Shown piece after piece: positions 8,989-35,560 of a stretch of DNA of 64,000 nt. Position numbers and translations under genes: made by a program. This DNA comes from Kineosporia succinea (GTDB lineage: Bacteria; Actinomycetota; Actinomycetes; Actinomycetales; Kineosporiaceae): the NCBI RefSeq assembly GCF_030811555.1, contig NZ_JAUSQZ010000001.1, positions 6,445,241 through 6,509,240 on the forward strand. The letters are read 5' to 3'. Within the stretch, counting starts at the first letter, position 1. Every line of letters begins with the position of its first letter. The notes beneath the pieces were generated by a model. The model ran no database searches. It was not told the origin of the DNA and worked only from the letters and a program-made list of their open reading frames with translations.

Positions 8989-9066
8989 TCTCAACTCCCT
9001 TGTCGAGATACCGCTCTCTGCTGAGTTCCGCGACAGTAACAAGGAGTGTTGAGGTTCTACAAGGGT

Positions 9067-11745: not shown

Positions 11746-11991
11746 AAGGCTCGGCAGGCCCCGACGTTCGGAGGTTCAGGGGGCTGGGCGGGCCCACTAC
11801 GTATGCCTGGGTCTCGGTGGACCCGCAGCTTCGGGGGCTCAGGGGCACCCGGCGTTCGGGTGGGGAGCGGGGGCCACCGTGGCGTCCGCTCCCCCGGCGA
11901 TCGAGCGGCCCGGCGGGCCGGCGAGGTGTTCAGCCGGTCGACGCGGTCGGGATCGGTGCCCGGGTGGGGCTCAGATGTGGTGCAAGGTGTT

Positions 11992-12033
11992 GGTGCTCAC
12001 CGGGCGGTGCTCACCGGGCGCTGCTCACCGGGT
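11992..12033. repeat. 14-bp tandem repeat, three units
   Basis: GGTGCTCACCGGGC occurs twice exactly, then as GCTGCTCACCGGGT. It lies just downstream of the 2-TM protein gene end. Confidence 0.85.
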
Positions 12034-12073
12034 CTGTTCAGCCACGTCCGGGGTCGGGGTGCTCGCGCACCGG

Positions 12074-17593: not shown

Positions 17594-17875
17594 GTGGCGG
17601 AAGACATCTTCATCCCCGGCGACGAGCTGGACGCGGCCAGAACGGCCCTGGACAGGATCAAGGAGAACATCGACATCAGCGGCGCCGGCATCGACTTCGA
17701 CCGGGCGCTGGGGCGCGACCTGGCCCGGGCCGCCGGCTCGTTCGAGAGCCGCTGGTCCGACGGCCGGTTCCAGCTGGTGCGCGAGATCGACGGGATGCGC
17801 GACAAGTTCCAGCAGGTGAGCGACGCGTTCGCGCAGACCGACAACGACGCCGCCGCGAGCCTCGTGGCGGAGTGA
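17594..17875 (+). CDS. Small helical ESX/WXG100-like protein
   Basis: A 93-residue acidic protein beginning MAEDIFIPGDELDAARTAL, with two predicted helices separated near residues 52-58 by RWSDGR, a position and composition like the WXG turn. The C-terminal helix ends DAFAQTDNDAAASL, similar to the end of the WXG100 protein at 30116-30409 (AFSQTDEQLGSNL), which suggests the two are related substrates or partners. There is no signal peptide. It is the first of three closely spaced plus-strand genes. Assignment as a type VII secretion partner rests on length, helix-turn-helix shape and location. Confidence 0.65.
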   Translation: MAEDIFIPGDELDAARTALDRIKENIDISGAGIDFDRALGRDLARAAGSFESRWSDGRFQLVREIDGMRDKFQQVSDAFAQTDNDAAASLVAE

Positions 17876-17886
17876 AGGACGAGACC

Positions 17887-18495
17887 ATGCGTGAACGCTT
17901 CCTGCTCAACGTGCCCGAGACCTGGAACACGACCGACCTCACCGGTCAGGACCTGGCGGCGGCCAGGGCGCAGGCGCTCGCCGCAACCCCCGACCCGCGG
18001 GCCAAGGCCCGGATCAACGACTACTTCCGCACCGGCCGCGACCTGCTGCGCTCGGCCCGCAAGCACGGCGCCCTGTTCAGCGCCAGCACCGCCGAGATGT
18101 ACGACGACGGTCTCTTCATGGCCTACGTCATGGTGTTCGCGGTGAACACGCCCGAGGGCCTGGAGTTCACGCTGCCCGTGCTCACCCGCGCGCTGGGCAC
18201 CTCGAACCGGCAGCCCGCCGACCGCGAGGTCACCTCCGTCACCGTGCCCGCCGTCGGGTCCGCCGCCCGGGTCACCGGCACCGAGATCGCCGAGATCACG
18301 GCCGACGTCTCCACGAAGCTGCTGACGATGCACACCATGCTCCCCGTGCCCGGCCGCCCGCAGGAATACCTGATCGTGTCCTGCGCCAGCCCCAACCTGC
18401 CGCTGAAAGACACCGTGTACCAGCTGTTCGGCGCGATCACGGCCACCTTCCGGTTCACCACGCCCGACGGTGAGGAAGTCCTCGCGCCGGCCTGA
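17887..18495 (+). CDS. Conserved-looking 202-aa protein of the secretion locus, unknown function
   Basis: Starts 11 bases after the previous gene with a GAAGGA site. It begins RERFLLNVPETW and has a mixed alpha/beta pattern ending in YLIVSCASPNLPLKDTVYQLFGAI and TATFRF. That final strand-helix-strand resembles MOG1/PsbP-like (LpqN/DUF1795) proteins, but only by eye. It has no signal peptide or membrane segment, so it is probably cytoplasmic. Its position between two secretion-related genes suggests a chaperone or accessory role. No family can be named with confidence. Confidence 0.7.
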   Translation: MRERFLLNVPETWNTTDLTGQDLAAARAQALAATPDPRAKARINDYFRTGRDLLRSARKHGALFSASTAEMYDDGLFMAYVMVFAVNTPEGLEFTLPVLTRALGTSNRQPADREVTSVTVPAVGSAARVTGTEIAEITADVSTKLLTMHTMLPVPGRPQEYLIVSCASPNLPLKDTVYQLFGAITATFRFTTPDGEEVLAPA

Positions 18496-18563
18496 CCGGC
18501 CGCGTCCTCCCGCCGTCCCCGAGTCCCGACCCGCAGTGCGTTCCTGTTCCGAGGAGATCCGAC

Positions 18564-21500
18564 GTGCCCAGACCGAGCAGCGCAGACCTGGCCCTCGTCG
18601 GCATGTCCGACGACCCCACGCCCGGCGACCCGGCCGAGATCGGGCGTCTCGAGGCCCGGTACCGCGACGTCGGTGACCAGGCCTCGGTGGCGCTCGACTT
18701 CGTCAAGGGCGGCGGGGTGCTGGAGACCAAGGGCAAGGGCTCGGCCGTCGACGCCCTGAAGGAGCAGATCGGCCAGCTCGAGGGGTTCCTGCGCAGCACG
18801 GTCGAGAGTTTCGAGCAGGCCGCGAACGCCTACCAGACCTACAGCGGCAAGCTCGGCGAGGCCCAGGGTGAACTGAAGTCCGCGATCGACGACGCGCGCC
18901 CGTTCGCCGGGACCGCCGCGCAGAGCGTCGAGGCGCTGCCACCCGAGGCCACCGAGGAGCAGAAGAGCGCCGCGCGCACCCGGCAGAACTCCATCGACGA
19001 GGCGCAGGGCAAGGTCGAGGCCGCGAAACGGCGGGCCCAGGGCGCCAAGGCCGCCCGGGACACCGCGCGGCAGGCCTGCGAGGCCGAGCTCGACGAGGCC
19101 GAGAGCAAGGCCATCAAGGAACGCAACGTGTTCCAGAAGATCGCCGACTTCTTCGAGGACAACTTCTTCGTCCAGCTCATCCTCGCCGCCATTGTCGGCA
19201 TCATCGCACTCGTCTTCCCCGTCGTCGGGCTCCTGCTCGGCGGCCTCCTGTTCGTGTTCAACCAGGTCGTGGCGATAGGCGACGGCAATTTCAAGCTCGG
19301 CGACTTCCTCACCGGCATCATCGCCCTGGTTCCCGGCGGCGCGCTGCTCGGCCGGTTCGCCGGCACGATCGCGAAACTGCCCGGCCTGAAGCAGATCCTG
19401 AGCTCCGGCGCGGTCAAGGGCATCACCACCTTCCGCACCGGGCTGCAGAACGGAACCATCGGCGGCGCCACACTCAGCAAGGTCGTCGGGCCGGCCGAGG
19501 AGGTCGTGGTCTCGTTCTTGAAGGGCTCGACGCTCGAGGTCGTCGCCAAGGCGGGCAACAAGGAAGACATCACGGCGGCCAACATCCTGGCGCCCTCGGC
19601 CGTGGCCGCGATCGGGACGGTGGGCGCGGGGGCCGCGCTCGGGGCCATCCCGACGAAGGGTCGTCGCGGTGGTGGTAGCGGCGCAGGTGGCGGGGGCGCA
19701 GGTGGCGCAGGGGCCGGCGGCGTGGGTGGCGCCGGTGGCGCTGGTGCCGGTGGCGCTGGTGCCGGTGGCGCTGGTGCCGGGGCAGGCGGAGGTACCGGAA
19801 GCCCGGGCACAGGTGGTCCGGGCACAGGTGGTCCGGGCACAGGTGGTCCGGGCGGTGCTGGTGGCACCGGAGCCGGCCCCACGGGCGGCGCCGGGGCTGG
19901 CGCGCCGGCCACACCGGCGGGCGGTGCCGGAACCGGAGCTCCCAGCACGGCCAACCCCGTCCCCACGGGTGCCGGTGCAGCCGGCGGTGGTACCGGGACC
20001 GGCCCCGGCACCGGCCCAGTGACACCGGCGCCGGCCACCGGTGGTTCCGGAGTCCCGGTGGGCGCTCCCGCAGCGGCCGCCGGAGCCGGCGCCGGTATCG
20101 GTGGCGGTTCGGGTACGAGAGCTGGAGCCGGTTCAGGGGCCGGATCCGGTTCCCCGGCTCCTGCCCCGGCCTCGGCCTCGGCCCCTGCCGGAACGGGGAC
20201 CCCCGCAGGAGCGGGCACCGGTGCCGGAGCCGGTACACCGGCGGGTTCGGGAGCCGGAACCGGAGGCGGCGCAGGCACTCCCACCGCAACCGGGACGGGA
20301 GCCGCACCCGCCGCCGGCGCAGGAACCGGGGCAACGCCCGGTACAGGCGCCGGTACAGGCGCCGGTACAGGTGCCGGAACGGGCGCCGGAACGGGCGCCG
20401 GAACGGGCGCCGGAACGGGCGCCGGAACGGGCGCCGGAACGGGCGCCGGAACGGGCGCCGGAACGAGTGCCGGTGCTGGTGCTGGTGCTGGTGCTGGCGG
20501 TCAAGGCAGCGGCTTCTTCATTCCGGAGAAGGTCAATCGCGGCGAGTTCGACGAGCAGCTGGCGAACAACGTCGGGCAGTTCGCGAGCACGTTCACGAAG
20601 GTGGGCGTATCCATGAACGAGCAGGGCACCTCGTTCGAGGAGGCCCTGAACGGCGAGGCGGCCAACCTGATCCCGGGTCTGGCGGGTGGTCCGGCGGCGA
20701 AGGACCGCACCGTCGGCAACTTCCTCGGTGACGCCCCGAGCGGTGCGGGCCCGAACCAGGGCCAGAACATTCCGTTGTCGACGCTCGGACCGTCGGGCGG
20801 CGGGCCCGGCTCCTCGGCCCCGTCCGGCCCGGTGTCGTCCGGAGCCGGCGCGACGCCGGATCCTGGCCAGGCCTCGACGTCCGCCCCGGCTCCGGCCGCA
20901 CCCCAGCCGTCCAGCTCACCTCAGCCCCCGGTCACGCCGGACCCGGCCACGTCCTCGGCACCGCCCGCGAGCCCGACCGCGCCCGCCCAGCCCCCGGCCT
21001 CGCCACCCTCGGCCGCGCCAGATCCGGCTGCCTCCCCGGCTGCCCCGGCTGCCCCGTCGGGTCCGGCCACACCCGACCCCGCCCCGGCCTCGGCACCACC
21101 CGCGAGCCCCAGCACCCCCGCCCCCGCCACGTCCGCTGCGCCACCGTCGGGTCCGACGACACCCGACCCGGCCCCGTCCTCCACAGCCCCCCAGGGCCCG
21201 GGCGCCCCCGACCCTGCGGCGTCCTCGGCAGCCCCGTCGGGTCCGAGCACACCGGATCCCACCCCCTCGCCCGCGCCGTCGCAGAGCCCGAGCACCCCAG
21301 ACCCGTCAGCAGACCCGGCAGCGTCCGCGGCGCCGCCGTCAGGTCCGGCCACGCCCGATCCCGCGCGGCCGCCCGCTCCGGCGCAGAGTCCCAGCACCCC
21401 GGACCCGGCCTCGTCCTCTCCGTCATCGACGAGTCCTGGCGCACCGGATCCGGCCCAGCCCTCCACGCCGCCTCAAGGCCCGGGCACTCCCGATCCGGCC

Positions 21501-22061
21501 GCCTCCGCATCATCACCGCCGAGCCCGGCCACACCCGCCCCCGCCACACCGTCAACCGCTCCCCCGGCCTCCGATCCGGCTCAACCCGCCGCCGCTGTGC
21601 AGAGTCCGGCCACGCCCACCGGTTCGCCGTCCGGTCCGGGCACGCCCGAACCAGCCACATCGCCCGCGGCTCCATCTGCCACTGCCCCAACGTCATCCCC
21701 GGCTGGGGCGCAGAGCCCGGCTCAGTCGTCCCCGGATGCGGCGGCATCGACGGCCCCGGCGCCCGGTGCAGCGTCGACCGGTGCAGCGTCGACCGGTGCA
21801 GCGTCGACCGGTGCAGCGTCGACCGGTGCAGCGTCGACCGGTGCAGCGTCGACCGGTGCAGCGTCGACCGGTGCAGCGTCGACCGGTGCAGGTCAGGGCC
21901 CGCCGACGGCGGCTCCCGCGCCGACCACGGCCGCGCCACCGGCAACGAGCGGCGCAGCGCCTGCGCAGTCACCGACGGCTCCCGCTCCCACGCCGCCCGC
22001 CTCGCCCGACCCGGCGCAGCCGTCTCAGCCGGCGGGGTCGGGGCAGGTACCGCCGCCCTAG
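18564..22061 (+). CDS. Large repeat-rich membrane protein of the type VII secretion-like locus
   Basis: A 1165-residue protein with a GTG start and GAGGAGA site. Residues 1-185 are helical and coiled-coil-like, resembling the N-terminal helical domains of ESX substrates (IGQLEGFLRSTVESFEQAAN). Two membrane segments lie at about 197-235 (LILAAIVGIIALVFPVVGLL). A less hydrophobic domain runs to about 365. Then come Gly/Ala/Thr repeats (367-647), a conserved-looking 75-residue island (FFIPEKVNRGEFDEQLANN onward, 648-725), and a Pro/Ala/Ser/Asp tail with repeated TPDPA and STGAA motifs to the end. The reading frame is kept through hundreds of repeat codons. A surface-exposed or secreted spacer/adhesin-like role is inference. 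Confidence 0.85.
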   Translation: MPRPSSADLALVGMSDDPTPGDPAEIGRLEARYRDVGDQASVALDFVKGGGVLETKGKGSAVDALKEQIGQLEGFLRSTVESFEQAANAYQTYSGKLGEAQGELKSAIDDARPFAGTAAQSVEALPPEATEEQKSAARTRQNSIDEAQGKVEAAKRRAQGAKAARDTARQACEAELDEAESKAIKERNVFQKIADFFEDNFFVQLILAAIVGIIALVFPVVGLLLGGLLFVFNQVVAIGDGNFKLGDFLTGIIALVPGGALLGRFAGTIAKLPGLKQILSSGAVKGITTFRTGLQNGTIGGATLSKVVGPAEEVVVSFLKGSTLEVVAKAGNKEDITAANILAPSAVAAIGTVGAGAALGAIPTKGRRGGGSGAGGGGAGGAGAGGVGGAGGAGAGGAGAGGAGAGAGGGTGSPGTGGPGTGGPGTGGPGGAGGTGAGPTGGAGAGAPATPAGGAGTGAPSTANPVPTGAGAAGGGTGTGPGTGPVTPAPATGGSGVPVGAPAAAAGAGAGIGGGSGTRAGAGSGAGSGSPAPAPASASAPAGTGTPAGAGTGAGAGTPAGSGAGTGGGAGTPTATGTGAAPAAGAGTGATPGTGAGTGAGTGAGTGAGTGAGTGAGTGAGTGAGTGAGTGAGTSAGAGAGAGAGGQGSGFFIPEKVNRGEFDEQLANNVGQFASTFTKVGVSMNEQGTSFEEALNGEAANLIPGLAGGPAAKDRTVGNFLGDAPSGAGPNQGQNIPLSTLGPSGGGPGSSAPSGPVSSGAGATPDPGQASTSAPAPAAPQPSSSPQPPVTPDPATSSAPPASPTAPAQPPASPPSAAPDPAASPAAPAAPSGPATPDPAPASAPPASPSTPAPATSAAPPSGPTTPDPAPSSTAPQGPGAPDPAASSAAPSGPSTPDPTPSPAPSQSPSTPDPSADPAASAAPPSGPATPDPARPPAPAQSPSTPDPASSSPSSTSPGAPDPAQPSTPPQGPGTPDPAASASSPPSPATPAPATPSTAPPASDPAQPAAAVQSPATPTGSPSGPGTPEPATSPAAPSATAPTSSPAGAQSPAQSSPDAAASTAPAPGAASTGAASTGAASTGAASTGAASTGAASTGAASTGAASTGAGQGPPTAAPAPTTAAPPATSGAAPAQSPTAPAPTPPASPDPAQPSQPAGSGQVPPP
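20341..20472 (+). repeat. 12-bp in-frame tandem repeat, 11 units
   Basis: Units such as GAACGGGCGCCG and GTACAGGCGCCG encode repeated Gly-Ala-Gly-Thr. Six central units (20377-20448) are identical. It lies within the large repeat-rich protein gene. Nearby 18-bp (19734-19785) and 15-bp (19805-19850) arrays are related. Confidence 0.95.
21766..21885 (+). repeat. 15-bp in-frame tandem repeat, 8 identical units
   Basis: GTGCAGCGTCGACCG is repeated eight times without change, encoding Ser-Thr-Gly-Ala-Ala near the C-terminus of the large protein. Perfect identity indicates very recent expansion. Each unit contains a GTCGAC site. Confidence 0.97.
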
Positions 22062-22345
22062 ACGCCCGGCCGAGAACTCGGTCGGATCAGCCGGACACGG
22101 GCCGAGCTCGCACCCGGCCCGCTCGGGAACGAGCCGCCCGGGAGTCGGATCCGCGTGAAGCGAAGCTCGTGCGGCCGTTCACCGACGAGCATGACTCATG
22201 GCGTGAGGCGGGGCCCCGGGCGCACGTTCACCGCGCCGCGACCGCTGAGCACGCCCGGGCCGATCTGAGCGGATCTGAGCCGGGGACGGGTGCGAGTGGA
22301 TGCCTGGGCGCTCGAGGTGACCGCCGCGTCCACCATGGTGGGGTG
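22062..22345. other. Gap between the repeat-rich protein and the HATPase gene
   Basis: 284 bases between convergent genes with no supported gene. It contains small inverted repeats (CCGAG-aact-CGG near 22071) and a direct repeat GATCTGAGC near 22261-22280. Confidence 0.5.
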
Positions 22346-22819
22346 TCAGGCCTCGCGCAGGCGGGCCAGCAGTTTCGCGGGCGGGATGTCGGGGACCTCG
22401 GCCCAGACGGTCTTGACGCTCTCGCGCACGTACCAGCCCGCGGCCGAGGCCAGGGAGACCACGATCGACAGGCCCCGTCCCCCGATCTGCTCGGCGGTGG
22501 GATGACCGACGACGGGCGTGAGGTCCGGGGAGGCGTCGTCGACCCGGATGAGCCAGGAACTCGCGGTGGACGAGAGATGGATGTGGATCGGCTGACGGGC
22601 GTGACGCAGGGCGTTGCCGGCCAGTTCGGTGCAGACGATCTCCATGCGGTGCGTCAGCACGGCGAGGTGCGGCGAACCGGGTGGGACGACGATCGGCGGG
22701 TTGCGCACGCACAGGGAGATGATCGTCTCGCGGGTGCCGGTCAGCTGGTCCAGGCCGGGCAGGGCCCAGGAGCCGCGCTCGTGGCGGAGCACGTCCGGGG
22801 GCGGGTTGCGGGAGAGCAC
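22346..22819 (-). CDS. RsbW-type anti-sigma factor / HATPase_c_2 serine kinase
   Basis: A 157-residue GHKL ATPase-fold protein. The N-box reads ELAGNALRHA near residue 65, and the glycine-rich lid reads EQIGGRGLSIV near 112. Such proteins bind and inhibit a sigma factor or phosphorylate a STAS-domain antagonist. The GTG start has AGGAG upstream. The next minus-strand gene upstream encodes a STAS protein and beyond that a PP2C phosphatase diverges, giving the three parts of a partner-switching circuit. The cognate sigma factor is not adjacent. Confidence 0.9.
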   Translation of the reverse strand: MLSRNPPPDVLRHERGSWALPGLDQLTGTRETIISLCVRNPPIVVPPGSPHLAVLTHRMEIVCTELAGNALRHARQPIHIHLSSTASSWLIRVDDASPDLTPVVGHPTAEQIGGRGLSIVVSLASAAGWYVRESVKTVWAEVPDIPPAKLLARLREA

Positions 22820-22977
22820 GGTTCTTCGACGCTCCTAGCCGATCGTTGCAGCGTCTGGCACGGGCGCTGACGCCCGTCGCACAAGACTGGTCCACGCTGG
22901 TAGGGATCGGCCTCGGTCATCAGCCTAGAGGGGCCGTCTGTGCCCCGCGCGCCGAGGTGGTGGAAATCGCTTGCAGG

Positions 22978-23430
22978 TCAGGGGGTGGCCCGGCCGTCGG
23001 GGCCGAGACGGCCCTCGGCCCAGACGAACAGGGAGGACGCGCCCGCGACGGTGAGGAGCTCCTCGACACCAGGTGCCGGGCCGCACAGCACGACCGACCC
23101 GCCGTGCGCGCGGATCGAGGCGGCGACGCGCACCAGGAACGAGATGCCGACCGAGTCGATCAGGTCGACGTGCCGGACGTCGACCTCGATCGGCATGTCC
23201 TTCTCGATCGCGTAGCCGCCGGCCTCCTCGAGTTCCTGGGCCTGGCTCATGTCGATGCTGCCGCGCAGCAGCACGATGACGGTGCCGTCGTTCTCGTAGA
23301 CGGAGACGTCGCCCTTGGAGGAGCCCGGTTCGGTGCGGGGAGACAGACCCGGCTGACCGGTGCGGGCACCGACCACTCTCAGGTGCCGCTGACCGCGACC
23401 ACCCGTATGGTCGTCCGTGCGCTCAGTCAT
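22978..23430 (-). CDS. STAS-domain anti-sigma factor antagonist
   Basis: A 150-residue protein. About 45 polar, basic N-terminal residues precede a STAS domain: DGTVIVLLRGSIDMSQAQEL, PIEVDVRHVDLIDSVGISFLV with the serine in DSVGISF as the phosphorylation site, then GGSVVLCGP. In RsbV/SpoIIAA-type systems the unphosphorylated form binds the HATPase and frees the sigma factor. ATG at 23430 with AGGACG upstream is preferred to a GTG eight codons earlier. It lies 158 bases upstream of the HATPase gene on the same strand and is divergent from the phosphatase. Confidence 0.9.
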   Translation of the reverse strand: MTERTDDHTGGRGQRHLRVVGARTGQPGLSPRTEPGSSKGDVSVYENDGTVIVLLRGSIDMSQAQELEEAGGYAIEKDMPIEVDVRHVDLIDSVGISFLVRVAASIRAHGGSVVLCGPAPGVEELLTVAGASSLFVWAEGRLGPDGRATP

Positions 23431-23612
23431 GCTGCGTCCTGCCCTGTGGTTCACGAGAGATCGTCCGGAGGACGCGTGCGCGGTCAGCCCTGGTTCTGGA
23501 CCACACCGGTGGCGACACCATACGGAATTCTCCGCTCCCCGGACAGGCGCGGCCCGGCCGGACTCGCATAATGGGTGGGTGCACAGAGGGAGTGGCGACC
23601 TGACGCCCGCTC

Positions 23613-25382
23613 ATGACTGACCCGACGACCCCTCCCGCGGGGCAGGCACTGGCCGACGAGCAGGAGCTCTCGCTCAGCTTCGACCGGTACGCCCAGCTGG
23701 TGCGGGACATCCTGGGGGTGCCCGCCGCGACGGTGTCGCTCGTCGGCGAGCAGACGCAGAGTTTCCTGGGCGCCGCCGGCCTGCCCGAACCGTGGCAGAC
23801 CCAGCGCTGGACGCCTCTGGTTCACTCGATCTGTCTCCTGGTGGTGGACGACTCGGCCCCGGTCGCGATTCCCGACGCCCGCCTCGATCCACGCACCAGT
23901 GCCAGCCCGTCCATCACGGACCTGGAACTCGTCGCCTACCTGGGGGTCCCGCTGGTCGCGGGGACGCAGATCGTGGGGGCCCTGTGCGCGATCGACGGAG
24001 TGCCCCGGCAGTGGGGCGAGCGCGAGATCCACATCCTGACCGGCCTGTCCGCGGCCTGCTCGGCCGAGCTCGTGCTGCGCCACACCCGCGCGCAGGCGCT
24101 CGACCGCCGGCGCGAGGCCGAGACCGCGCGGGCCGTCGCCGAACGTCACGGTCAGGACGCGGAGGTCGCGCGGCACCGCTCCGAGCTGCAGACCGTGGTG
24201 TTCCGGGAGTCCGAGCGCCACTCCCGCCTGCTGCTCGCTCTGTCCGAGACGCTGGCCGCGACCAGCAGCGTGGAGAGCGTGCTGGAGGTGGTGCAGGAGG
24301 CGTCGGCCGGGTACCTGGACGCCGAGACGGCCAGCTTCGTGCTCGACGAGCAGCCCGTGCTGGTGACCGGGCGGGCCCCGGACGACGGACGCAGCCTGTC
24401 CGCGCCGCTGTCGGGGACCCTGCCGGGGCGCCTGGTGCTGACGTGGGCGACCGAGGAGGCGGCCCGGCCGTGGCGCAGCTCGGGTGAGGACGAAGACGGG
24501 CGCGACGGCACCGACGGACGGGACGGCACCGACGGACGGCGCACCCAGGCCCAGGTCGAGGAGACCATCTCGGCGCTGGCCCATTTCGCCTCGATGGCCC
24601 TCGACCGCGCGATCCTCCTGCAGGAGCGCCGCAGTGCCGCCGCGACCCTCCAGCACGCGATGCTCACCCTGCTCCCCCCTCGCCCGGACGCTTCTCTGGC
24701 CGCCCGGTACGTGCCCGCCGCCAGCGCCAACCAGGTCGGCGGGGACTGGTACGACGCGGTGACGGTTCCCTCGCCGACCGGCATCGCCGAGGACGCCGAC
24801 CTGGCCCTGATCATCGGGGACGTCGCCGGTCACGACATCGGCGCGGCCGCCACGATGGGGCAGGTGCGCAGCGTGCTGCGGGGGCTGCTGGTCGACCGGG
24901 GCCTGGACCAGGGCGTGGATCCGGCCGCGATGATCAGCCGGCTGGACACCGCCCTGACCCGGCTCGCGATGCCGACCTGCTCCTCGCTCGTGCTGGCGGT
25001 GCTGCACGCTCCCGACGACGAGGGGCCCGGGCGTCGTCTGACCTGGGCCAACGCCGGGCATCCGGCCCCGTTGCGGATCAGCGCCGACGGCCGTACCCAG
25101 CTGCTCGACGAGCCCACCGGCCTGCTGCTGGGCATCCCGCTGGTGCTGCCCCGGCACACCCACGAGACGCGGCTGGAGCCCGGCGACACCCTGTTGCTGT
25201 ACACCGACGGGCTGATCGAGCGCCCGGGCCGGCGGCTGTCGGCCGGGCAGGCGCAGCTCATGCTCAGTGCTGCCTCCCACCACGGCCTACCGGTGACCGA
25301 GATGCTCGACCGGGTGCTGCAGGACCTGATCTCGGACGACCCGGACGACGACTGCGCGATGCTGGCGATCCGTCTGGGGTGA
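23613..25382 (+). CDS. GAF-domain PP2C (SpoIIE/RsbU-type) phosphatase
   Basis: A 589-residue soluble protein. Residues about 20-155 form a GAF domain (VHSICLLVVDDSAPVAIPDA, VAYLGVPLV, GALCAID). A coiled linker and a second GAF-like segment follow to about 340, interrupted by an acidic GRDGTDGRDGTDGRR repeat. The PP2C_SIG domain fills about 350-589 with metal-binding motifs NQVGGDWYDA, GDVAGHD, NAGHPAP, LLLYTDGLIE and DDDCAML. It would dephosphorylate the STAS antagonist encoded divergently 182 bases away, activating the partner-switch in response to a signal sensed by GAF. The signal is unknown. Confidence 0.93.
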   Translation: MTDPTTPPAGQALADEQELSLSFDRYAQLVRDILGVPAATVSLVGEQTQSFLGAAGLPEPWQTQRWTPLVHSICLLVVDDSAPVAIPDARLDPRTSASPSITDLELVAYLGVPLVAGTQIVGALCAIDGVPRQWGEREIHILTGLSAACSAELVLRHTRAQALDRRREAETARAVAERHGQDAEVARHRSELQTVVFRESERHSRLLLALSETLAATSSVESVLEVVQEASAGYLDAETASFVLDEQPVLVTGRAPDDGRSLSAPLSGTLPGRLVLTWATEEAARPWRSSGEDEDGRDGTDGRDGTDGRRTQAQVEETISALAHFASMALDRAILLQERRSAAATLQHAMLTLLPPRPDASLAARYVPAASANQVGGDWYDAVTVPSPTGIAEDADLALIIGDVAGHDIGAAATMGQVRSVLRGLLVDRGLDQGVDPAAMISRLDTALTRLAMPTCSSLVLAVLHAPDDEGPGRRLTWANAGHPAPLRISADGRTQLLDEPTGLLLGIPLVLPRHTHETRLEPGDTLLLYTDGLIERPGRRLSAGQAQLMLSAASHHGLPVTEMLDRVLQDLISDDPDDDCAMLAIRLG

Positions 25383-25445
25383 GGGCCCGGGTTCTCAGGC
25401 GCACGCCGGTCCCGGCGCACGCCTTGGCGCCGGACCTGGCGACGA

Positions 25446-25475
25446 GGCGCGCCCGGGTTCTCGCCCGGGCGCGCC
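25446..25475. terminator. Bidirectional hairpin terminator
   Basis: Perfect 12-bp arms GGCGCGCCCGGG / CCCGGGCGCGCC with a TTCTCG loop, between the 3' ends of the phosphatase gene and the convergent FtsK-type gene. Confidence 0.85.
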
Positions 25476-25498
25476 TTCGGGTCGCCGGTTCAGGTGCC

Positions 25499-25543
25499 GC
25501 CTGCGCCGGCGTCGCCTGCGCTGGCGTCGCCTGTGCTGGCGTC
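25499..25543. repeat. 15-bp tandem repeat, three units, beside the eccC-like stop codon
   Basis: GCCTGCGCYGGCGTC is repeated three times. It is flanked by near-identical 17-base copies (25481-25497 and 25541-25557); the right one contains the stop codon of the FtsK-type gene and the left one reproduces it outside the gene. Confidence 0.85.
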
Positions 25544-25549
25544 GCCGGA

Positions 25550-28500
25550 TCAGGTGCGGATGGGCACCTGGACCCCCAGGAGGCTGCCGTCACCCAGGTG
25601 CAGCAGACCCCGGCCGGGCTGCGGGGCCTGCCCGATCAGCCCGCGGGAGAGCTTCACGCCGATGACCTCGCCGTCGCTGAGGCTCTGCGGCGACAGGAGC
25701 ATGCCGGTGCGGTTGCGTTTCATCTGCCCGACCCAGCCGGCCAGGCTCAGCGTCAGCGACTCGGAGTTGCCGGCCGCCAGCACACCCCAGCCGTTGCCCT
25801 GGGCTCCCCGCGACAGGGACGCCAGGTCGGGGTCGATCTCGGAGTTCATCACCAGCTCGGCGTCGTCGACCACGATCACCGCGGTCTCCTCGGGGATGTT
25901 GCTCAGCACCTGGCGGAACTGCGCGACCCCGACCTCGGCGTCGGTGATCACCGCGGCCACGCCCGGGCGGCCCGCCAGGTCACGCAACGGCGAGCGCCGC
26001 GGCGCGACGACCACCAGGCCGCTGCCGGCGGCCAGGAGCGACTCCGCGGCGGTGAGCAGCGCGGTGCTGCGGCCGGTGCGGGGCGGGCCGGCGATCACGA
26101 ACGAGGGGACGTCGGACAGGTCGGGGCTCAGGGCGGTGAGGGTGTCGCCGCCCACGGCCAGCAGGGGCCGCATGGAGCCGGGGGTGCTGGGCAGGCGCAG
26201 GGCCTGGTCGTAGGTGATGCGGTCGGGCAGGACGTCGAGACGCAGCGGACGGCGGGTGGCGGGGACGGCGGCCTCGCGTTCGCGCAGCCCGGCGCCCAGG
26301 CGCTGCAGGACCTCGGCCTGGGCGGTGCCGGTGAGGTCGCGGGTCAGGACGGCGATCTGGATCTCGCTGAGGTCGCCGGTGCGCAGGGCGCGGCCGGGGG
26401 CGGGGGCGTCGGGGGCCTGGCGGGTGGGGATGCCGACGCTGGAGTACTCCTGCTTGTCGTTGAGTTTCAGCACGATCTTGTCTTCGGTGGTGCCGGAGTA
26501 GCGGCTGCCGCCCAGGACCTTGTCGCCGGCGAGCACGACGTGGATGCCGACACCCGCGCCGTCGCGCAGCAGGCGCAGCATGCGCTCGAGGTAGCTGCCG
26601 TTGTCGTAGGACAGGAACTCGCGGTCGAAGACCTCGAACCGGTCGACCATGACGACGATGTGCGGCAGGCGCTCGGCCGGGGGCTGGGCGGCGCGCAGTT
26701 CGGTCAGGTCGGCGCTGCCGCGGGCGCCGAGAACGCCCTGCCGGGAGGTGAGCTCGGCGTTGAGGCGGTCGAGGAGGCGGCCCAGGCGCTCGATCTGCTT
26801 GCGGTCGACGACGGCGCCGGTGTGCGGCAGCTCGGCCAGGGCGTTGAGGGCGCCGTTGCCGCAGTCGATGCCGTAGAGGTGCAGGTCGTCGACGCCGTGC
26901 GCGGCCGTCAGGGCGGCGGCGAGGGTGCGCAGGGTCTGGGAGCGGCCGGTGCGCGGGGAGCCGATGACGTGCAGGTGCCCGGTCTGGTCGAGGTCGAACG
27001 TGAGGTCGGTGCGGGCCTGCTGGGCGGGCAGGTCGATGACACCGAACGCGACCGGGGGCAGGGCGGCGGGGCGCTGCCCGGCCGCCGGCGGGTCGGCCGG
27101 GCGGTTCCAGTCGAGCAGGATGGGCAGGGGCGGCAGCCAGGGGCTGGGCTGGCGTTCGATGCCGGCCTCGTGGGCGGCCTTGGCGATGGTCTCGACCAGC
27201 ACGGCGAGGTCGGTGACGGCCTCGACCTGCTCGCCCGTGGCGCTGCGGGGCCGGGCCGGGAGTGGGCCGCCGAGGTCGGGCCAGGTGACGACGCCGGCGC
27301 GGACCGGCGGCGGGGTGTCGGCCCGGACCTGCCCCAGGCCGCTGGGACGGCGCCCGCCGACGCGGGCGGACTGGAACGGCAGCAGCACCGAGGGGCCGAG
27401 CCGGGCGTAGGCGCGCCCCGGGTTGGACGGGGAGATCTCGCCGGAGGCCGGGCTGTCGATGATGTCGCGGCTCTCGGAGCCGTCGGTGGTGCGCAGCGCG
27501 ATGCGCAGGTTGGTGTTGGCCCGGATGTCGGGGGTGACCGCACCGCCGGGCCGCTGCGTGGCCAGCACCAGGTGGATGCCGAGGGAGCGGCCGCGCTGGG
27601 CGATGTTGACCAGGCCGGAGATGAAGTCGGGCAGTTCGCGGGCCATCGAGGCGAACTCGTCGATGACCAGCATCAGGCGCGGTAGCGGGGGCATCGAGAC
27701 CGAGCCGGAGCGGGTGCGCCTGTCGAGGTAGTCGAGGATGTCCTTGGCGCCGTGCTGGGCCAGAAGTGTCTCGCGGCGGCGCAGTTCGGCGCCGAGGGAG
27801 ACCAGGGCGCGCTCGACCAGGTGGGTGTCGAGGTCGGTGACCAGGCCGACGGTGTGCGGCAGGTCGGCGGCCTCGGCGAACGCGCTGCCGCCCTTGTAGT
27901 CGACGAGCACGAAGGTCATCTCGTCGGGGCGGTTGACCACGGCGAGGGTGGCGACCAGGGTCTGCAGCAGCTCGGACTTGCCGGAGCCGGTGGTGCCCGC
28001 GATCAGGGCGTGCGGGCCGTCGCGCACCAGGTCGACGGAGAACGCGCCGTCGTAGCCGGCGCCGAGCGTGGCGGTGGTGCTGCGCCCGCCCAGGTTCCAG
28101 CCCGCCACCAGCGCGCTCGGCGTGGGCGGTTCGAGCCCGAGCAGGTCGAGCAGCCGCACGGCGCCGGGCAGGGTGCTCTCGTCGCTGTCACCGACCCCCC
28201 GGAGCGGGGCCAGGGCCCGGCCGAGGTGCTCGTACCAGCCGCGTTCGGGTGAGTCGGGGCGCACGTCGGTGAGGGCGGCGCCCGGGCCGGTGCGCACGCT
28301 CGACGTCGCGCCGGTCACGACCACGGCCCCGGACTCCTCGGGCAGGAGGCGCTCCTCACGGTCGACGCAGATGACGAAGACGCCCACGGCCGGGCCCTCA
28401 CGCAGCAGCGACACGACGCCGGGCAGGGAGCGGGCGCGGCGGGCCTGCTCGAGCACGACCAGGACGTCGGGGTAGCCACTGACACCGCCACGGACCAGGT

Positions 28501-29920
28501 CGCGGCCCAGGGCGGTGCGGGCGGTGACCATCTGGCCGAGCTCGCCGATGCGCCGGGCCAGGGAGTCGGTGGTGCTGCCCACGAGGGCGTACGCGTCTTC
28601 GCCGGTGGCCTGGGTGTGCGGCAGCCAGCGGGTCCAGCTCCAGGTGCTCTCGCCGTCGGGACCGGCCAGCACGACCAGGCGCAGGTCGGTGGGCCCGTGC
28701 AGCGAGACCGCCTGCGCCGCCAGCCAGGCCGCGAGCGCGCTGCCGCCGGGACCGGCCAGGCCGACGACCCCGGCGCGGCGCACGTCGACGCGCACGGGCA
28801 CCTGGTCGAGCCAGGGCACGGTGGTGCGGCGGTGCTCGTCGAGGGTGGGGTCTTCGACGCTGGTGGCCGAGGGCAGGTCGGTGGTGCCGACGCGCAGGGT
28901 GAGGAAGTCGGGGTCGGCCCAGCGGCGTTCCCACAGTCGCTCGGACGGCTGGGCGGCCATGCGCAGGAGCGAGGCGGGGTCGGGCAGGGACAGGCGCAGG
29001 TTGTGCTGCTCGTCGCGGACCGTGGCGTCGATGTCGTCGGTGAGGCGGGCCTTGCGGGCCTCGTACTCGGCGAGCTGCTCGCGGTACTTGGCCATGGCCT
29101 GCTTGCGGCCGCTGAACTGGGTGAGCAGGGCGCCCAGCGGGGACAGCAGCGCGATGAAGATGAAGATCCAGCGGCCGGTGAGCAGGATCGTGACCAGGGC
29201 GCTGCCGGCCGGCAGGAGCAGGATGGGCAGCAGCGGGATCGGGCGCTTCTCGGGCCTGGTGGGCGGGGCGGGCAGGCGGAACTTCTGCCCGGCCTCGGGC
29301 GGCAGGAACCGGGGCGGGCGGTTGAACTCCAGGCCCAGGCCGTCGTCGGCCGGGGTGAGCGGCGCGGGCACCGGGTGCGCGGAGGAGATCTCGAGCAGGC
29401 TGTCGCCCGCGGCCAGGAGACTGCCCTCGTGCCAGGCGGTCTCGCCGGTGACCGGCTTGCCGTCGAGCTGGGCGGCCTCGGCGCGCAGCAGCACGACCGT
29501 GCCGTCGGCGCGCACGCGCACCTGGGCGGCGAACGCGCCCGTGCCGGCCCCGGCGGGCAGGCGCAGGCGGCAGGCGGGGTCGCTGCCGAGGTCGTAGTCG
29601 CCCGGCGGGAGCCGGAACACGGTGCCGGCGCCGGGCCCGGACACGACGCGCACCTCGGTGCGGCCCTCGGGGGCCGGGCCGGACGGCACCGGGGACCCCA
29701 GGCCCAGGTCGGCGCCGTCACGGATGCCGGCGCGGCGCAGCGAGTCACCCGGTTCCAGGGCACGGTCGCCGGTGAACAGCGGGGGTGAGCCGGCCACTCC
29801 CAGGACGCGGGCCAGCTCGGTGGCGAGGGAGCCCACCGGGGCGGCCGGGTCGGTCTCGACGACGACGGTGGCGGACACGGCGGCGTCCTGCGGATCGCGG
29901 ACGCTGACGTTCAGGCGCAC
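25550..29920 (-). CDS. FHA-FtsK/SpoIIIE type VII secretion ATPase (EccC/EssC-like)
   Basis: A 1456-residue membrane ATPase. Residues 1-80 look ubiquitin-like (LRRAGIRDGADLGLG end). About 90-180 is FHA-like, as in EssC. Two membrane segments lie at about 228-265. Three FtsK-type ATPase domains follow. The first has a full Walker A, GTTGSGKSELLQTL (about 640), and Walker B LMLVIDEFASM (about 752). In the second, GSPRTGRSQTLRTL (about 987), and the third, GPPRTGRSTALLTA (about 1275), Arg replaces the Walker Lys. This motor recognises and exports WXG100-type substrates. The GTG start and FHA front are more EssC-like than the split mycobacterial EccCa/Cb. The WXG100-like gene lies 195 bases upstream on the same strand. 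Confidence 0.93.
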   Translation of the reverse strand: MRLNVSVRDPQDAAVSATVVVETDPAAPVGSLATELARVLGVAGSPPLFTGDRALEPGDSLRRAGIRDGADLGLGSPVPSGPAPEGRTEVRVVSGPGAGTVFRLPPGDYDLGSDPACRLRLPAGAGTGAFAAQVRVRADGTVVLLRAEAAQLDGKPVTGETAWHEGSLLAAGDSLLEISSAHPVPAPLTPADDGLGLEFNRPPRFLPPEAGQKFRLPAPPTRPEKRPIPLLPILLLPAGSALVTILLTGRWIFIFIALLSPLGALLTQFSGRKQAMAKYREQLAEYEARKARLTDDIDATVRDEQHNLRLSLPDPASLLRMAAQPSERLWERRWADPDFLTLRVGTTDLPSATSVEDPTLDEHRRTTVPWLDQVPVRVDVRRAGVVGLAGPGGSALAAWLAAQAVSLHGPTDLRLVVLAGPDGESTWSWTRWLPHTQATGEDAYALVGSTTDSLARRIGELGQMVTARTALGRDLVRGGVSGYPDVLVVLEQARRARSLPGVVSLLREGPAVGVFVICVDREERLLPEESGAVVVTGATSSVRTGPGAALTDVRPDSPERGWYEHLGRALAPLRGVGDSDESTLPGAVRLLDLLGLEPPTPSALVAGWNLGGRSTTATLGAGYDGAFSVDLVRDGPHALIAGTTGSGKSELLQTLVATLAVVNRPDEMTFVLVDYKGGSAFAEAADLPHTVGLVTDLDTHLVERALVSLGAELRRRETLLAQHGAKDILDYLDRRTRSGSVSMPPLPRLMLVIDEFASMARELPDFISGLVNIAQRGRSLGIHLVLATQRPGGAVTPDIRANTNLRIALRTTDGSESRDIIDSPASGEISPSNPGRAYARLGPSVLLPFQSARVGGRRPSGLGQVRADTPPPVRAGVVTWPDLGGPLPARPRSATGEQVEAVTDLAVLVETIAKAAHEAGIERQPSPWLPPLPILLDWNRPADPPAAGQRPAALPPVAFGVIDLPAQQARTDLTFDLDQTGHLHVIGSPRTGRSQTLRTLAAALTAAHGVDDLHLYGIDCGNGALNALAELPHTGAVVDRKQIERLGRLLDRLNAELTSRQGVLGARGSADLTELRAAQPPAERLPHIVVMVDRFEVFDREFLSYDNGSYLERMLRLLRDGAGVGIHVVLAGDKVLGGSRYSGTTEDKIVLKLNDKQEYSSVGIPTRQAPDAPAPGRALRTGDLSEIQIAVLTRDLTGTAQAEVLQRLGAGLREREAAVPATRRPLRLDVLPDRITYDQALRLPSTPGSMRPLLAVGGDTLTALSPDLSDVPSFVIAGPPRTGRSTALLTAAESLLAAGSGLVVVAPRRSPLRDLAGRPGVAAVITDAEVGVAQFRQVLSNIPEETAVIVVDDAELVMNSEIDPDLASLSRGAQGNGWGVLAAGNSESLTLSLAGWVGQMKRNRTGMLLSPQSLSDGEVIGVKLSRGLIGQAPQPGRGLLHLGDGSLLGVQVPIRT

Positions 29921-30115
29921 GGGGGTTCAGCTTTCAGCAGCGGTTCGGACAAGGGGCCGGGCATGGTTCGGGCAGCGGTTCACACGGGGCGACGGGCATC
30001 GGGAGTCCTTTCGGGAGAGCCGGACGCAGACGTTCTCCCGTAGAACACCGGCGAGCCCCCGGAAGGTTGAGGCCTTGCGGGCATCAGTTTCCGGGGGCAC
30101 CGTCGGCCGGGGACG

Positions 30116-30409
30116 TCAGCCCAGGTTGGAGCCGAGCTGCTCGTCGGTCTGGCTGAACGCCTCACCGACCGAGCGCACGTACTGCCCGATGCCCTGAAGG
30201 CCGTTGTTGACCTGCTCGAAGCCCTTGCCGAACTCGTCGAAGAACGGCGAGAACTTCTGCTGCGCGGCCGGGGTCGAGTAACCGTTGGCGAGCAGGCTCT
30301 GGACCTTGCCGCGCACCTCGGTGAGCTTGTCCTGCAGCTGCTGGAAGTCGTTCAGCAGGGCCTGCGACGTGGACGCGGTCTCGTCTGAGTTGATCTTGAA
30401 GTCGGGCAC
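30116..30409 (-). CDS. WXG100-family (ESAT-6-like) protein
   Basis: A 97-residue helical hairpin protein with no signal peptide. Helix one is NDFQQLQDKLTEVRGKVQSL, the turn is NGYSTPAAQ, and helix two is DEFGKGFEQVNNGLQGIGQYV, followed by a tail AFSQTDEQL. The canonical Trp-X-Gly of the turn is absent (Gly-Tyr-Ser instead), but a YxxxE export-like motif is present (YVRSVGE). The GTG start has GGAGAAA upstream. It lies directly upstream of the EccC/EssC-like gene, the expected position for its substrate, and is divergent from the LysM/TM gene. Confidence 0.87.
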   Translation of the reverse strand: MPDFKINSDETASTSQALLNDFQQLQDKLTEVRGKVQSLLANGYSTPAAQQKFSPFFDEFGKGFEQVNNGLQGIGQYVRSVGEAFSQTDEQLGSNLG

Positions 30410-30580
30410 GGCGTTTCTCCTCGTCCGATGGCTTCCGTGTCGGGAGGGATACGACGCGCGGGGTCCGGATGGTTCAGCCCGGTTGCCCGTTCGTACACCC
30501 GCGGACGGTCAGGACGGCAACCGGCCCGCGAACCGCGCCGCCCGTCGAACCCTGGACCGGCCCGTTCCCGTACTCCACGC

Positions 30581-31912
30581 ATGAAGCGCGCAACTCCCGG
30601 CGGCCGGGCGGTCACGGTCCTCCTCGCCCTCCTCCTGACGACCGCCGGGCTGCTGGGCACCCAAGTGACCAACGCGTCCCCGAGCCGGGCCGGTGACACC
30701 GAGAACCTCGTCAAGGTGTTCGTGGTGCCGCCGCTGGACCAGACCGGCGGGCAGGCGGTCGGGCTGGCGGCCGTGGCCGGTGCGGTGCTCGGCGACCAGA
30801 CCCGCGCCGGCGAGATCTTCCAGCTCAACCAGAACCGGCGCCAGCCCGACGGCGGCGCCCTGACCGAGCCGAACCAGGCGCTCACCCCCGGCTGGATCCT
30901 GCGCCTGCCCGGCGACGCCTCCGGCCGGCTCGTGCAGTTCGCCCGCGAGCGGGGCGACGACGCGGTGCAGATGGACAACGGCCAGATCCAGGGCGGCGAC
31001 ACCGGTTTCCCGCCCGCCGCGGTGCTCGCCGCGATCGGCTCGGTGCTGCTGGCCCTGATCACCGCCGCCATCGTGACCCGCCGCCGCCTCGGCGCCTGGC
31101 TGCGGCGCACCCTCGAACGCCTGCGTGAACCCGGCCGCCGCCGCGCGAGACTCGCCGCCCGCCGCGACCTGACCGGGCGCTTCCGTTCCGACACCGAGAC
31201 GGTGCGGCGCGCGTACAGCACCGTCGGCTCGCTCGCCGTGCGCTCGCCCGGCAACCAGGTGCACGCCCTGCGGGTCGACGAGCGCAGCGTCACCGTGTGG
31301 GTCTCCGGCGACACCGCCCCGCCCGAGCTGCCCGGCCCCTGGCGCGGCGTCGACGACTCCCACTGGCGCCTCGACGGCGCTCTCCCCCGGCCGGACCCGC
31401 AGGGCGACGGCACGGCCTGCCTGGTGCGCGCCGGCGGCACCGACGCCGCGAGCGCGGTGTTCGTCGACCTCAGCCGCCTCGACGGCGTCCTGAGCGTGAC
31501 GGGAGACGAGAGCGTCGGCCGCGACGTCGTCCATCATCTGCTCACCGAGGTCGCCGCCGTGCAGCCCGGCACCCCGGTGCAGGTGCTGGGCGGGTACCCG
31601 ATCGCGATCCCGGCCGGGCTGAACCAGGTCTCGTGGACCCCGGGCACCCCGTCCCGCCAGGACCACGACGACGAGTCCCCCGTGCGCGCCACCGCCCTGC
31701 GGCGGCCGGTGCGCGGGATCGTCGTGGTCGCCGGCACCCCTGACCGGGCCACCCTGGACGAGCTGTCCCGGCTGTGCGGTTCGGGCGGCGAGGGGTGGAC
31801 GGGCCTGGTGGCCGGGGACGTGCCGGTCGGCGCGCACTGGCGCTGGCACGCGGTCGAGGACGGCGACGTGGACATCCCGGTGCTGGACGTGCGGGTGACC
31901 GTCCCGGCGTGA
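30581..31912 (+). CDS. LysM-like, membrane-anchored protein of the secretion locus
   Basis: A 443-residue protein. An N-terminal hydrophobic segment (VTVLLALLLTTAGLL) exports residues 30-140, which show a LysM-like pattern: VKVFVVPPLDQTGGQAVGL, LGDQTRAGEIFQLN, GWILRLPG. A second membrane segment lies at about 148-172 (PPAAVLAAIGSVLLALITAAIV), then an Arg-rich stretch and a roughly 250-residue cytoplasmic domain of unknown fold. ATG at 30581 is used because it begins the signal segment. It is divergent from the WXG100 gene (171-base shared promoter region). It could anchor the secretion machine to peptidoglycan, taking the place of EccB-like proteins; that is inference. Confidence 0.78.
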   Translation: MKRATPGGRAVTVLLALLLTTAGLLGTQVTNASPSRAGDTENLVKVFVVPPLDQTGGQAVGLAAVAGAVLGDQTRAGEIFQLNQNRRQPDGGALTEPNQALTPGWILRLPGDASGRLVQFARERGDDAVQMDNGQIQGGDTGFPPAAVLAAIGSVLLALITAAIVTRRRLGAWLRRTLERLREPGRRRARLAARRDLTGRFRSDTETVRRAYSTVGSLAVRSPGNQVHALRVDERSVTVWVSGDTAPPELPGPWRGVDDSHWRLDGALPRPDPQGDGTACLVRAGGTDAASAVFVDLSRLDGVLSVTGDESVGRDVVHHLLTEVAAVQPGTPVQVLGGYPIAIPAGLNQVSWTPGTPSRQDHDDESPVRATALRRPVRGIVVVAGTPDRATLDELSRLCGSGGEGWTGLVAGDVPVGAHWRWHAVEDGDVDIPVLDVRVTVPA

Positions 31913-31970: not shown

Positions 31971-32519
31971 TCAGGCCGCGTCCGCGACCCGCCGCCGCAG
32001 CACCGAGAGCGCGTAGTGACGGCGTGATTTCACCGTGCCCACCGGGATGCCCAGCGCGAGCGCGGTCTCCTTGGCCGTCAGCCCGTTCAGGCAGGTGGCG
32101 CGGATGACGTCGCGGTGCTCGGGCGTGAGGTGGCGCAGCAGGTCGTCCGTGACCTGCGTGGCGACGACCTGGTCGGCGTGGTCGGGGTGCACACCGCCCG
32201 GCAGGGGCTCGGGCCGGTGCTCGGTGCCGACGCTCTCGTGCCGGGAGCTGGCACTGCGTACCCGGTCGATGGCGAGGTTACGGGCCACGGTCAGCAGCCA
32301 GCCGCGCACCGAGCCCTTCGAGGAGTCGAGCACCCCGGCGTGACGCCAGGCCCGGATGAGCGTCTCCTGGACGATGTCCTCGGCCAGGTAGTGGTCGTTG
32401 ATCAGGGACTCGGTGTAGGCCAGCAGTGCCCGCGCGTGCTCGGCCACCAGCGCGTCGAGCAGTGCGTCGTGCCCGTCAACGGAACCGGCTGTCGGGGATG
32501 CCGTGATCATGGCGGTCAT
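31971..32519 (-). CDS. ECF-family RNA polymerase sigma factor
   Basis: A 182-residue sigma-70 family member. Region 2 is HYLAEDIVQETLIRAWRH with GWLLTVARNLAIDRVR; region 4 is LTPEHRDVIRATCLNGLTAK and ALALGIPVGTVKSRRHYAL, the -35-recognition helix. The closest style is SigK/SigL-like actinobacterial ECF factors. No zinc-binding anti-sigma gene sits beside it; the usual downstream partner is absent, and an AfsR-like gene lies upstream on the same strand. ATG at 32519 is used; a second ATG follows three codons later. Confidence 0.92.
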   Translation of the reverse strand: MTAMITASPTAGSVDGHDALLDALVAEHARALLAYTESLINDHYLAEDIVQETLIRAWRHAGVLDSSKGSVRGWLLTVARNLAIDRVRSASSRHESVGTEHRPEPLPGGVHPDHADQVVATQVTDDLLRHLTPEHRDVIRATCLNGLTAKETALALGIPVGTVKSRRHYALSVLRRRVADAA

Positions 32520-35438: not shown

Positions 35439-35560
35439 AAAGGTGATCCTACGGCGCCCTTCACCCTCCGTCACGGCGCCCGCAGGAGCACACGGCCAGT
35501 TGTATGACATGAGTGACCGACGACTTCACCGCGTAGCGTCCCGGCCCGAAGCTCACCGGC

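Follow-up and report, generated by a model that had tools for sequence, protein, structure and literature searches.

A putative mobile type VII-like secretion locus of Kineosporia and other actinomycetes with a candidate Mog1/PsbP-fold chaperone

Analysis of a 64,000-nucleotide stretch of the Kineosporia succinea genome (the window; bases 6,445,241–6,509,240 of an 8.07 Mb, one-contig genome) revealed a locus encoding an EssC/EccC-like ATPase, a WXG100 protein, a second Esx-like small protein, a protein of about 202 amino acids (aa), which we have designated p202, a LysM-like protein with two transmembrane (TM) segments (the LysM/two-TM protein) and a 1165-aa putative substrate. All six genes had been named by an earlier sequence-only reading of this DNA and all were present (Table 1). 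The two components by which a type VII secretion system (T7SS) is recognised in the broad sense, a membrane FtsK/SpoIIIE-type EccC/EssC ATPase and a WXG100 protein, were both encoded. We consider it reasonably probable that the locus is a mobile, type VII-like system found in actinomycetes, that it has an ATPase lineage and an accessory set of its own, and that p202 is a chaperone for the TM-bearing substrate. The wider proposition has in our judgement an even chance of being correct: that type VII secretion in actinomycetes uses dedicated Mog1/PsbP-fold chaperones which shield substrate TM segments, as Eag proteins do in type VI secretion, and that the locus is a self-contained, plasmid-borne T7SS outside the published T7SSa–j.

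Table 1. Coordinates of the genes of the locus and of its likely regulators within the window
Feature	Position	Strand	Basis or remark
Second Esx-like small protein, 93 aa	17594..17875	+	C-terminal FxxxD, W-x-D-G turn; orthologues in 17 of 19 loci, one weak
p202, ~202 aa, predicted Mog1/PsbP-fold chaperone/adaptor	17887..18495	+	Predicted structure
T7SS-signal-type substrate, 1165 aa	18564..22061	+	Orthologues match PF21725; one with C-terminal RNAse_A_bac
EssC/EccC-like ATPase, 1456 aa	25550..29920	-	TIGR03928/TIGR03924/TIGR03925 scores, tree, closest solved chains
WXG100 protein, 97 aa, C-terminal FxxxD	30116..30409	-	PF06013 49.3 bits (cut-off 27.3)
LysM/two-TM protein	30581..31912 (ATG, 443 aa); frame from 30428	+	Homologues favour ATG at 30581
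ECF (extracytoplasmic function) sigma factor, likely regulator	31971..32519	-	In 11 of 16 EssC-carrying stretches
BTAD-NB-ARC-TPR regulator, likely regulator	32601..35510	-	BTAD match in 11 of 16 EssC-carrying stretches

The ATPase scored 525.7 bits with the EssC model TIGR03928 (cut-off 778.4), 388.9 with TIGR03924 (EccCa; cut-off 509.15) and 297.7 with TIGR03925 (EccCb; cut-off 346.55), and was below the cut-off in each case. The canonical EccC encoded at 4.03 Mb of the same genome scored 975.2 and 867.5 with TIGR03924 and TIGR03925 respectively, far over both cut-offs. The closest solved chain was 4nh0 (E 1e-75), followed by YukB and EccC5. The protein comprised an N-terminal stretch of ~80 residues that we infer to be ubiquitin-like, a degenerate FHA domain, two TM segments and three P-loops. 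An alignment of 16 ATPases, that of the window included, showed that the lysine of the first P-loop (K648 in the window) was retained in all 16, and that in all 16 the lysines of the second and third were replaced by arginine. Phosphothreonine binding by FHA domains depends on Arg and SxxH positions; comparison of the aligned ATPases with this motif, made by eye, indicated that these residues were replaced. In a quick tree of 44 ATPases the window grouped with sequences of Kineosporia, Actinoplanes, Planotetraspora and Streptomyces in a single 18-row clade (SH-aLRT 100), two rows of which were one record and the deeper placement of which is unsure due to long branches. A putative EssC lineage of its own was supported.

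A related-locus search with five p202 sequences identified 19 loci, of which 13 were from Streptomyces, three from Actinoplanes, two from Kineosporia and one from Planotetraspora. The second Esx was found in 17 of them (weakly in L084), a full EssC in 16, the WXG100 protein in the same 16, and the substrate family and the LysM/two-TM protein in 14 each; L088 had an additional, partial substrate-family match. The conserved set therefore consisted of the small Esx-like protein, the ~202-aa protein, the EssC-like ATPase, the WXG100 protein, the LysM/two-TM protein and a substrate bearing membrane segments. Because this set recurs in distant actinomycetes the locus is more than a chance arrangement, and the possibility raised by the sequence-only reading, that relatives might lack the gene neighbourhood, was not borne out in Kineosporia, Streptomyces, Actinoplanes or Planotetraspora. 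Three decayed copies (L082, L084 and L088, in Streptomyces and Actinoplanes) retained p202, and two of them the sigma factor and BTAD genes, without a full EssC, the WXG100 protein or the LysM gene; L082 had an EssC remnant, L084 and L088 no EssC at all.

Searches with tblastn located p202 on 11 plasmid records (ten Streptomyces, one Embleya) and the LysM/two-TM protein on nine Streptomyces plasmid records, five of which covered at least 80% of its length. The mobilizable linear Streptomyces plasmid NZ_CP108260.1 encoded the complete six-gene set, with no sigma factor or BTAD match; its annotation names an FtsK/SpoIIIE protein and a WXG100 target, and the other four of the six genes are hypothetical proteins. 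A match of >500 bits to the LysM/two-TM protein was present in just two of 345 genomes drawn evenly from the class, one of them the window's own, and plasmid carriage is consistent with such a patchy distribution. In the genus sample, four of six genomes (the window's included) had a match of at least 60% identity. From these records, the secretion-like gene set is apparently mobile among actinomycetes.

The 202-aa protein had been described in the sequence-only reading as being of unknown fold. Its predicted model instead has the Mog1/PsbP fold, the matches to its solved members standing well clear of unrelated rows, and the best structural match was SciW, which in type VI secretion serves as a chaperone wrapping effector TM segments. 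Identity to SciW was ~9% over the aligned part and the N-terminal helices of p202 lay outside the match. Eag (DUF1795) chaperones are described in the available text of PMC12881460 as domain-swapped dimers wrapping effector TM domains. Matches to p202 occurred in 35 of the 345 class genomes. Of the p202 matches listed for the class sample, 47 in all, 31 regions were examined, and 24 of these held an EssC-type ATPase; the other seven encoded a T7SS-signal or RHS-type protein within 1.2 kb.

The association of p202 with TM-bearing substrates was scored in the reverse direction, starting from matches to PF21725 (T7SS_signal) and recording a TM segment in the protein, called by a Kyte-Doolittle scan, and p202 in the fetched region. 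Over all scored loci, p202 adjoined 32 of 64 TM-bearing T7SS-signal proteins and two of 73 TM-lacking ones. Among the 79 scorable loci of the first batch the ratio was 11/39 TM-bearing to 0/40 TM-lacking with the first p202 profile, and 22/39 to 0/40 (Fisher 2.6e-9) with the iterated profile, which converged at 22 loci. Collapsing the proteins at 50% identity left 15 of 22 TM-bearing clusters with p202 and none of 18 TM-lacking clusters; at 40% the counts were 11/16 and 0/12. The second batch of 58 loci, for which profile and threshold were fixed, gave 10/25 and 2/33 (p 0.0025), and 10/19 and 1/17 (p 0.0034) when frames of at least 300 aa and a stricter TM threshold were used. The two TM-lacking exceptions were L272, which is cut by a contig end, and L263, a 415-residue frame with no called segment.

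The first batch consisted of 80 regions from the top of the PF21725 list, 18 rows above the last row having been passed over by hand; two of these were second pieces of frames already included and 16 were moved to the second batch. This comprised 60 regions, namely those 16 and nearly all later rows, with two second pieces (G101) and G335:C5 excluded. L190 (first batch), L254 and L293 (second batch) were dropped before counting due to a stop inside the match. A G194 region of the first batch held two adjacent matches and was scored by the first of them; the second was scored as L256. The TM thresholds tried were 1.5, 1.6, 1.7, 1.8 and 2.0 in the first batch and 1.7 and 2.0 in the second. Some loci were not independent: L211 overlaps L253 (G113), with one p202 gene common to both, and L251 overlaps L295 as L288 does L299. 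The p202 search had already returned the loci of L207, L211 and L226 in the first batch and of L111, L253, L262, L267, L268, L272 and L290 in the second, and the profile includes the p202 sequences of some of these. L248 and L290 are from the window's own genome, and many second-batch frames were <200 aa.

The 1165-aa protein, which the sequence-only reading had placed among the secretion partners, is better regarded as a member of a T7SS substrate family than as a part of the machine, since its orthologues match PF21725. The window protein itself had no Pfam match, PF21725 included. Eight of the 14 orthologues found were scanned and seven matched T7SS_signal at E<1e-4; four exceeded the cut-off of 27 bits (L072, L074, L083 and L086), three were under it (L075, 26.3; L080, 23.3; L085, 24.7) and L079 had no match. 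The window protein has a helical N-terminus, hydrophobic segments near residues 203–266 and 341–359, and a low-complexity tail of 805 residues consisting mostly of A, G, P, S and T. The Streptomyces flaveolus orthologue ends in an RNAse_A_bac domain (E 8.6e-19), and the tails of two Actinoplanes substrates and that of K. babensis appeared ParB-like by eye. Because the tails differ in this way between orthologues, the family resembles a delivery platform on which tails can be exchanged. The second Esx showed sub-threshold WXG100 similarity only (PF06013, 14.3 bits; TIGR03930, E 0.0045). The likeness that had been noticed between the C-terminal ends of the two small proteins proved to be real and conserved: in the printed alignments, window included, F-x-x-x-D lay close to the C-terminus in 17/17 WXG100 rows and 16/16 second-Esx rows, and the second Esx retained W-x-D-G in 16/16.

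The LysM/two-TM protein comprised an N-terminal TM segment, a putative LysM-like domain, a second TM segment and a cytoplasmic domain. Its earlier description as LysM-like agrees with the predicted model, in which a confident small domain (residues ~41–120) had LysM-type matches, and was not reproduced by Pfam LysM, which matched none of 14 homologues. The cytoplasmic domain was poorly modelled and had weak P-loop-type matches. The protein co-occurred with a full EssC in 16 of 16 carriers and with none of the three decayed loci. Two of the carriers, L071 and L080, had no LysM gene in the fetched stretch and a strong match elsewhere in the genome, the coordinate of that of L080 being just beyond the fetched stretch if on the same contig. 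The three genomes whose loci lack a full EssC contained no full-length LysM orthologue; the L088 genome had only a 23-residue match. Matches to the LysM part of the protein were also seen in L105 and L110, from two genomes, beside a Tad-pilus-like cluster (identified by eye) near p202.

According to the mechanism that we propose, the EssC-like ATPase would be the membrane motor, and the WXG100 protein and the second Esx would be export partners, each with the type VII export signal at its end in the FxxxD form. The 1165-aa family would be the substrate, with a helical T7SS-signal N-terminus, hydrophobic segments that may insert into a target membrane and a variable tail. Cytosolic p202 would hold these hydrophobic segments prior to export and help bring the substrate to the ATPase, a role like that of the Eag chaperones of type VI secretion, and the LysM/two-TM protein may link the system to the cell wall.

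Several observations weigh against this interpretation. The lead of SciW over DcrB and PsbP was no more than ~1 Z and its Foldseek alignment was poor (E 1e-3, TM-score 0.37/0.49, 10 A); the match of p202 is therefore to the superfamily. None of 15 p202 members scanned matched a Pfam family of the Mog1/PsbP superfamily; the only Pfam match was DUF2171, in two members (best E 0.24), with none to Eag/DUF1795, in a scan whose filters drop most weak matches. Additionally, p202 was found near EssC without the substrate family being detected close by (L098–L102). Regarding the association, the hydrophobicity calls rest on the Kyte-Doolittle scan; single linkage at 35% identity left 13 clusters (p 0.1), restriction of the second batch to frames of at least 300 aa gave 10/24 and 1/12 (p 0.059), and at a TM threshold of 2.0 p202 was present in 3/45 TM-lacking first-batch loci. 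As few as five changes account for the p202 label on the substrate tree, so the association partly follows phylogeny, and 32 of the 64 TM-bearing loci had no p202 in the fetched region. Given the clustered label, the overlapping regions and this half without p202, the association is strong but in part bound up with ancestry. No toxin domain was found in the window substrate or in four of five Streptomyces orthologues scanned. Lastly, the gene set, its conservation and domain content, the p202 fold and the association were all computed, and export itself, TM binding by p202, the role of the LysM protein and delivery to target cells are proposals.

With a somewhat less than even chance, the LysM/two-TM protein is a wall-tethered sensor that controls expression via the BTAD regulator and the ECF sigma factor, the machine being EssC with other partners yet to be found. 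Relatives of the LysM protein share long frames (called genes of 1215 and 1267 aa) with a BTAD match beside EssC/p202 in two genomes (L114 and L115), and LysM-type matches occurred in 108 of 345 class genomes against 35 for p202, mostly in frames of 900–1800 aa among the matches listed. Both regulators also recur beside EssC (Table 1), the BTAD match lying far from the LysM gene in two of its 11 stretches (L085 and L087). Against the sensor role, L082 and L084 keep the sigma factor and BTAD genes without a full EssC or the LysM protein, and the plasmid set has neither regulator. Furthermore, in a second EssC-like locus of the same genome (L031), the TM protein between the Esx pair and EssC aligned collinearly with the LysM cytoplasmic domain without a LysM or BTAD part, a weak match (single-sequence hhalign E 0.024, probability 2). 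The LysM protein, which the sequence-only reading proposed as a replacement for the usual membrane and wall components, may be either a machine component or a wall sensor; we lean slightly to the former, since its presence and absence track those of full EssC, which is not so for the sigma factor and BTAD. It seems rather unlikely that p202 is a general targeting factor for Esx proteins or substrates, similar to EspG or EsaE, which binds the helical shaft rather than membrane segments. In T7SSa, and as predicted also in T7SSb, the helical shaft is bound at its tip by chaperones of globular form (PMC10765036, available text), and several of the 24 class-sample regions with p202 beside EssC had no detected substrate of the 1165-aa family. 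However, p202 is nearly absent beside TM-lacking T7SS-signal proteins, its predicted fold is that of Eag/DcrB/PsbP, and the same filtered Pfam scan of 15 members gave no EspG match. We infer that p202 is a chaperone for membrane-inserting T7SS substrates.

The sequence-only reading had reported no EccB, EccD, EccE or MycP at the locus, which was confirmed: these four, EssA and EssB gave zero matches among the ten locus frames scanned, as did EsaA, which was searched for at the locus only. EssB (PF10140) was absent from the whole genome, and a control search was positive in Bacillus subtilis. A canonical ESX with its own EccC and WXG100-type proteins (one over the cut-off, one under) is encoded at 4.03 Mb, and the one EccB and one EccD of the genome are both located there, next to the canonical EccC. 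The sequence-only reading had named as a counter-case a full ESX in another part of the genome working with the products of this locus; half of it was found, and nothing shows such use. That the locus is a satellite of this ESX, its Esx proteins and substrate exiting through EccB/C/D from 4.03 Mb, is nevertheless the most improbable of the alternatives. EccB was present in 13 of 16 carrier genomes, the exceptions being Streptomyces sp. CB01373, S. albiflavescens and Planotetraspora thailandica; EccD had no match in CB01373 or P. thailandica and one in S. albiflavescens. These are draft genomes with contigs <3 kb left out, so that absence is not proof. The locus has its own distant ATPase, however, and since two draft carriers have neither EccB nor EccD the gene set is, on sequence grounds, probably independent of canonical ESX. 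The idea of a distinct actinobacterial type VII variant held up in the conserved set, the separate EssC clade and these two carriers. Only slightly less improbable is a loss or change of function, in which an export set now decayed would have been retained for a regulatory role or to display the A/G/P-rich protein at the cell surface. Decayed copies exist, the window substrate has its low-complexity tail and no toxin domain, and ATPase domains 2 and 3 have no P-loop lysine. Yet the ATPase is an open frame, 72–75% identical to full-length relatives from other genera, its first P-loop lysine is invariant, and the lysine-to-arginine changes are common to all 16 ATPases.

Comparison of the system with T7SSb (EssC/YukB, Bacillota) showed similarity in the FHA-bearing ATPase, scored best by TIGR03928, in the WXG100 protein and in substrates with helical N-termini and variable tails; the ATPase below the EssC cut-off and the genome without EssB differ, and neither a LysM/two-TM protein nor a Mog1/PsbP-fold p202 is named as a T7SSb part in the available texts. 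With T7SSa/ESX it shares an actinobacterial host, an EccC-related ATPase and a pair of Esx-like proteins, whereas the locus has no EccB, EccD, EccE or MycP match, its ATPase is below both EccC cut-offs and a separate canonical ESX is present. T7SSa–j have been described, with T7SSd as the only non-ESX type in Actinomycetota in the available text (Garrett, Higginson and Palmer 2024, PMC11217815); there, T7SSd has the kinase TsdD, TsdH, the Ig-like TsdI and a conserved phosphothreonine motif in FHA, with no ubiquitin-like protein, and neither 'LysM' nor 'Streptomyces' appears in the main text. As a non-ESX T7SS of Actinomycetota with FHA on the ATPase the locus resembles T7SSd as described there; it is set apart, by that description, in its degenerate FHA motif and in having no recognised TsdH- or TsdI-like gene. 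A kinase, a possible counterpart of TsdD, is encoded at 13129–14607 in the window, with orthologues in both Kineosporia loci. The Eag chaperones SciW and EagT6 resemble p202 in predicted fold and in gene position, frequently next to the gene for a toxin-like protein that bears TM segments and is sometimes of RHS type; the low identity, the uncovered N-terminal helices, the lack of a Pfam match and the association with type VII instead of type VI separate them. Among the matches listed in the open-access literature, judged on titles and abstract starts and with most subscription papers and bioRxiv outside the scope, neither the gene set nor a Mog1/PsbP-fold chaperone in type VII secretion was described, and the p202 chaperone claim would be new if confirmed.

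The genes of the locus are arranged as esx, p202 and substrate (+), a HATPase-like/STAS/SpoIIE cluster, ATPase and WXG100 (-), LysM/two-TM (+), and ECF sigma and BTAD (-). If p202 instead started from the GTG at 17872, its frame would overlap the stop codon of the preceding esx gene. The cluster between substrate and ATPase (22346–25382; HATPase-like, STAS and GAF-SpoIIE genes) is likely an anti-sigma partner-switching cluster; it is unrelated to the secretion set, and no such genes were called at the same spot in the K. mesophila locus L070. At 10111–11034 (-), ~6.5 kb from the Esx gene and outside the conserved set, lies the gene for a protein with a TNT domain (PF14021, E 1.2e-31) and a hydrophobic N-terminal stretch.

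Three further EssC-like ATPases in the genome were likewise under the EssC and EccC cut-offs. L031 (7682001–7702000) encoded two Esx-like genes, a TM protein, the C-terminal part of which perhaps resembles the LysM cytoplasmic domain as noted above, and a T7SS-signal-type protein of 1372 aa that has a TM segment; no p202 match was found within this stretch. L032 (7217001–7237000) encoded kinase-like, small helical, p202-like and WXG100 proteins together with an RHS protein of 1490 aa that bears TM segments, followed by a 143-aa gene. In L033 (1220001–1240000) the stretch around the ATPase (7796–12064) has a lower GC content and its codon use is atypical, for which reason a simple gene caller missed this gene, which was possibly acquired.

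To our knowledge, how T7SSs pass TM-bearing substrates through the producer's membrane without their sticking there is an open question, and a chaperone family with a predicted fold and a clear genetic association bears directly on it. If the proposed role of p202 is true, one chaperone fold would link two unrelated toxin-delivery machines, those of type VI and type VII secretion, and actinomycetes would gain a further mobile T7SS type, the partners of which are mostly annotated as hypothetical proteins.

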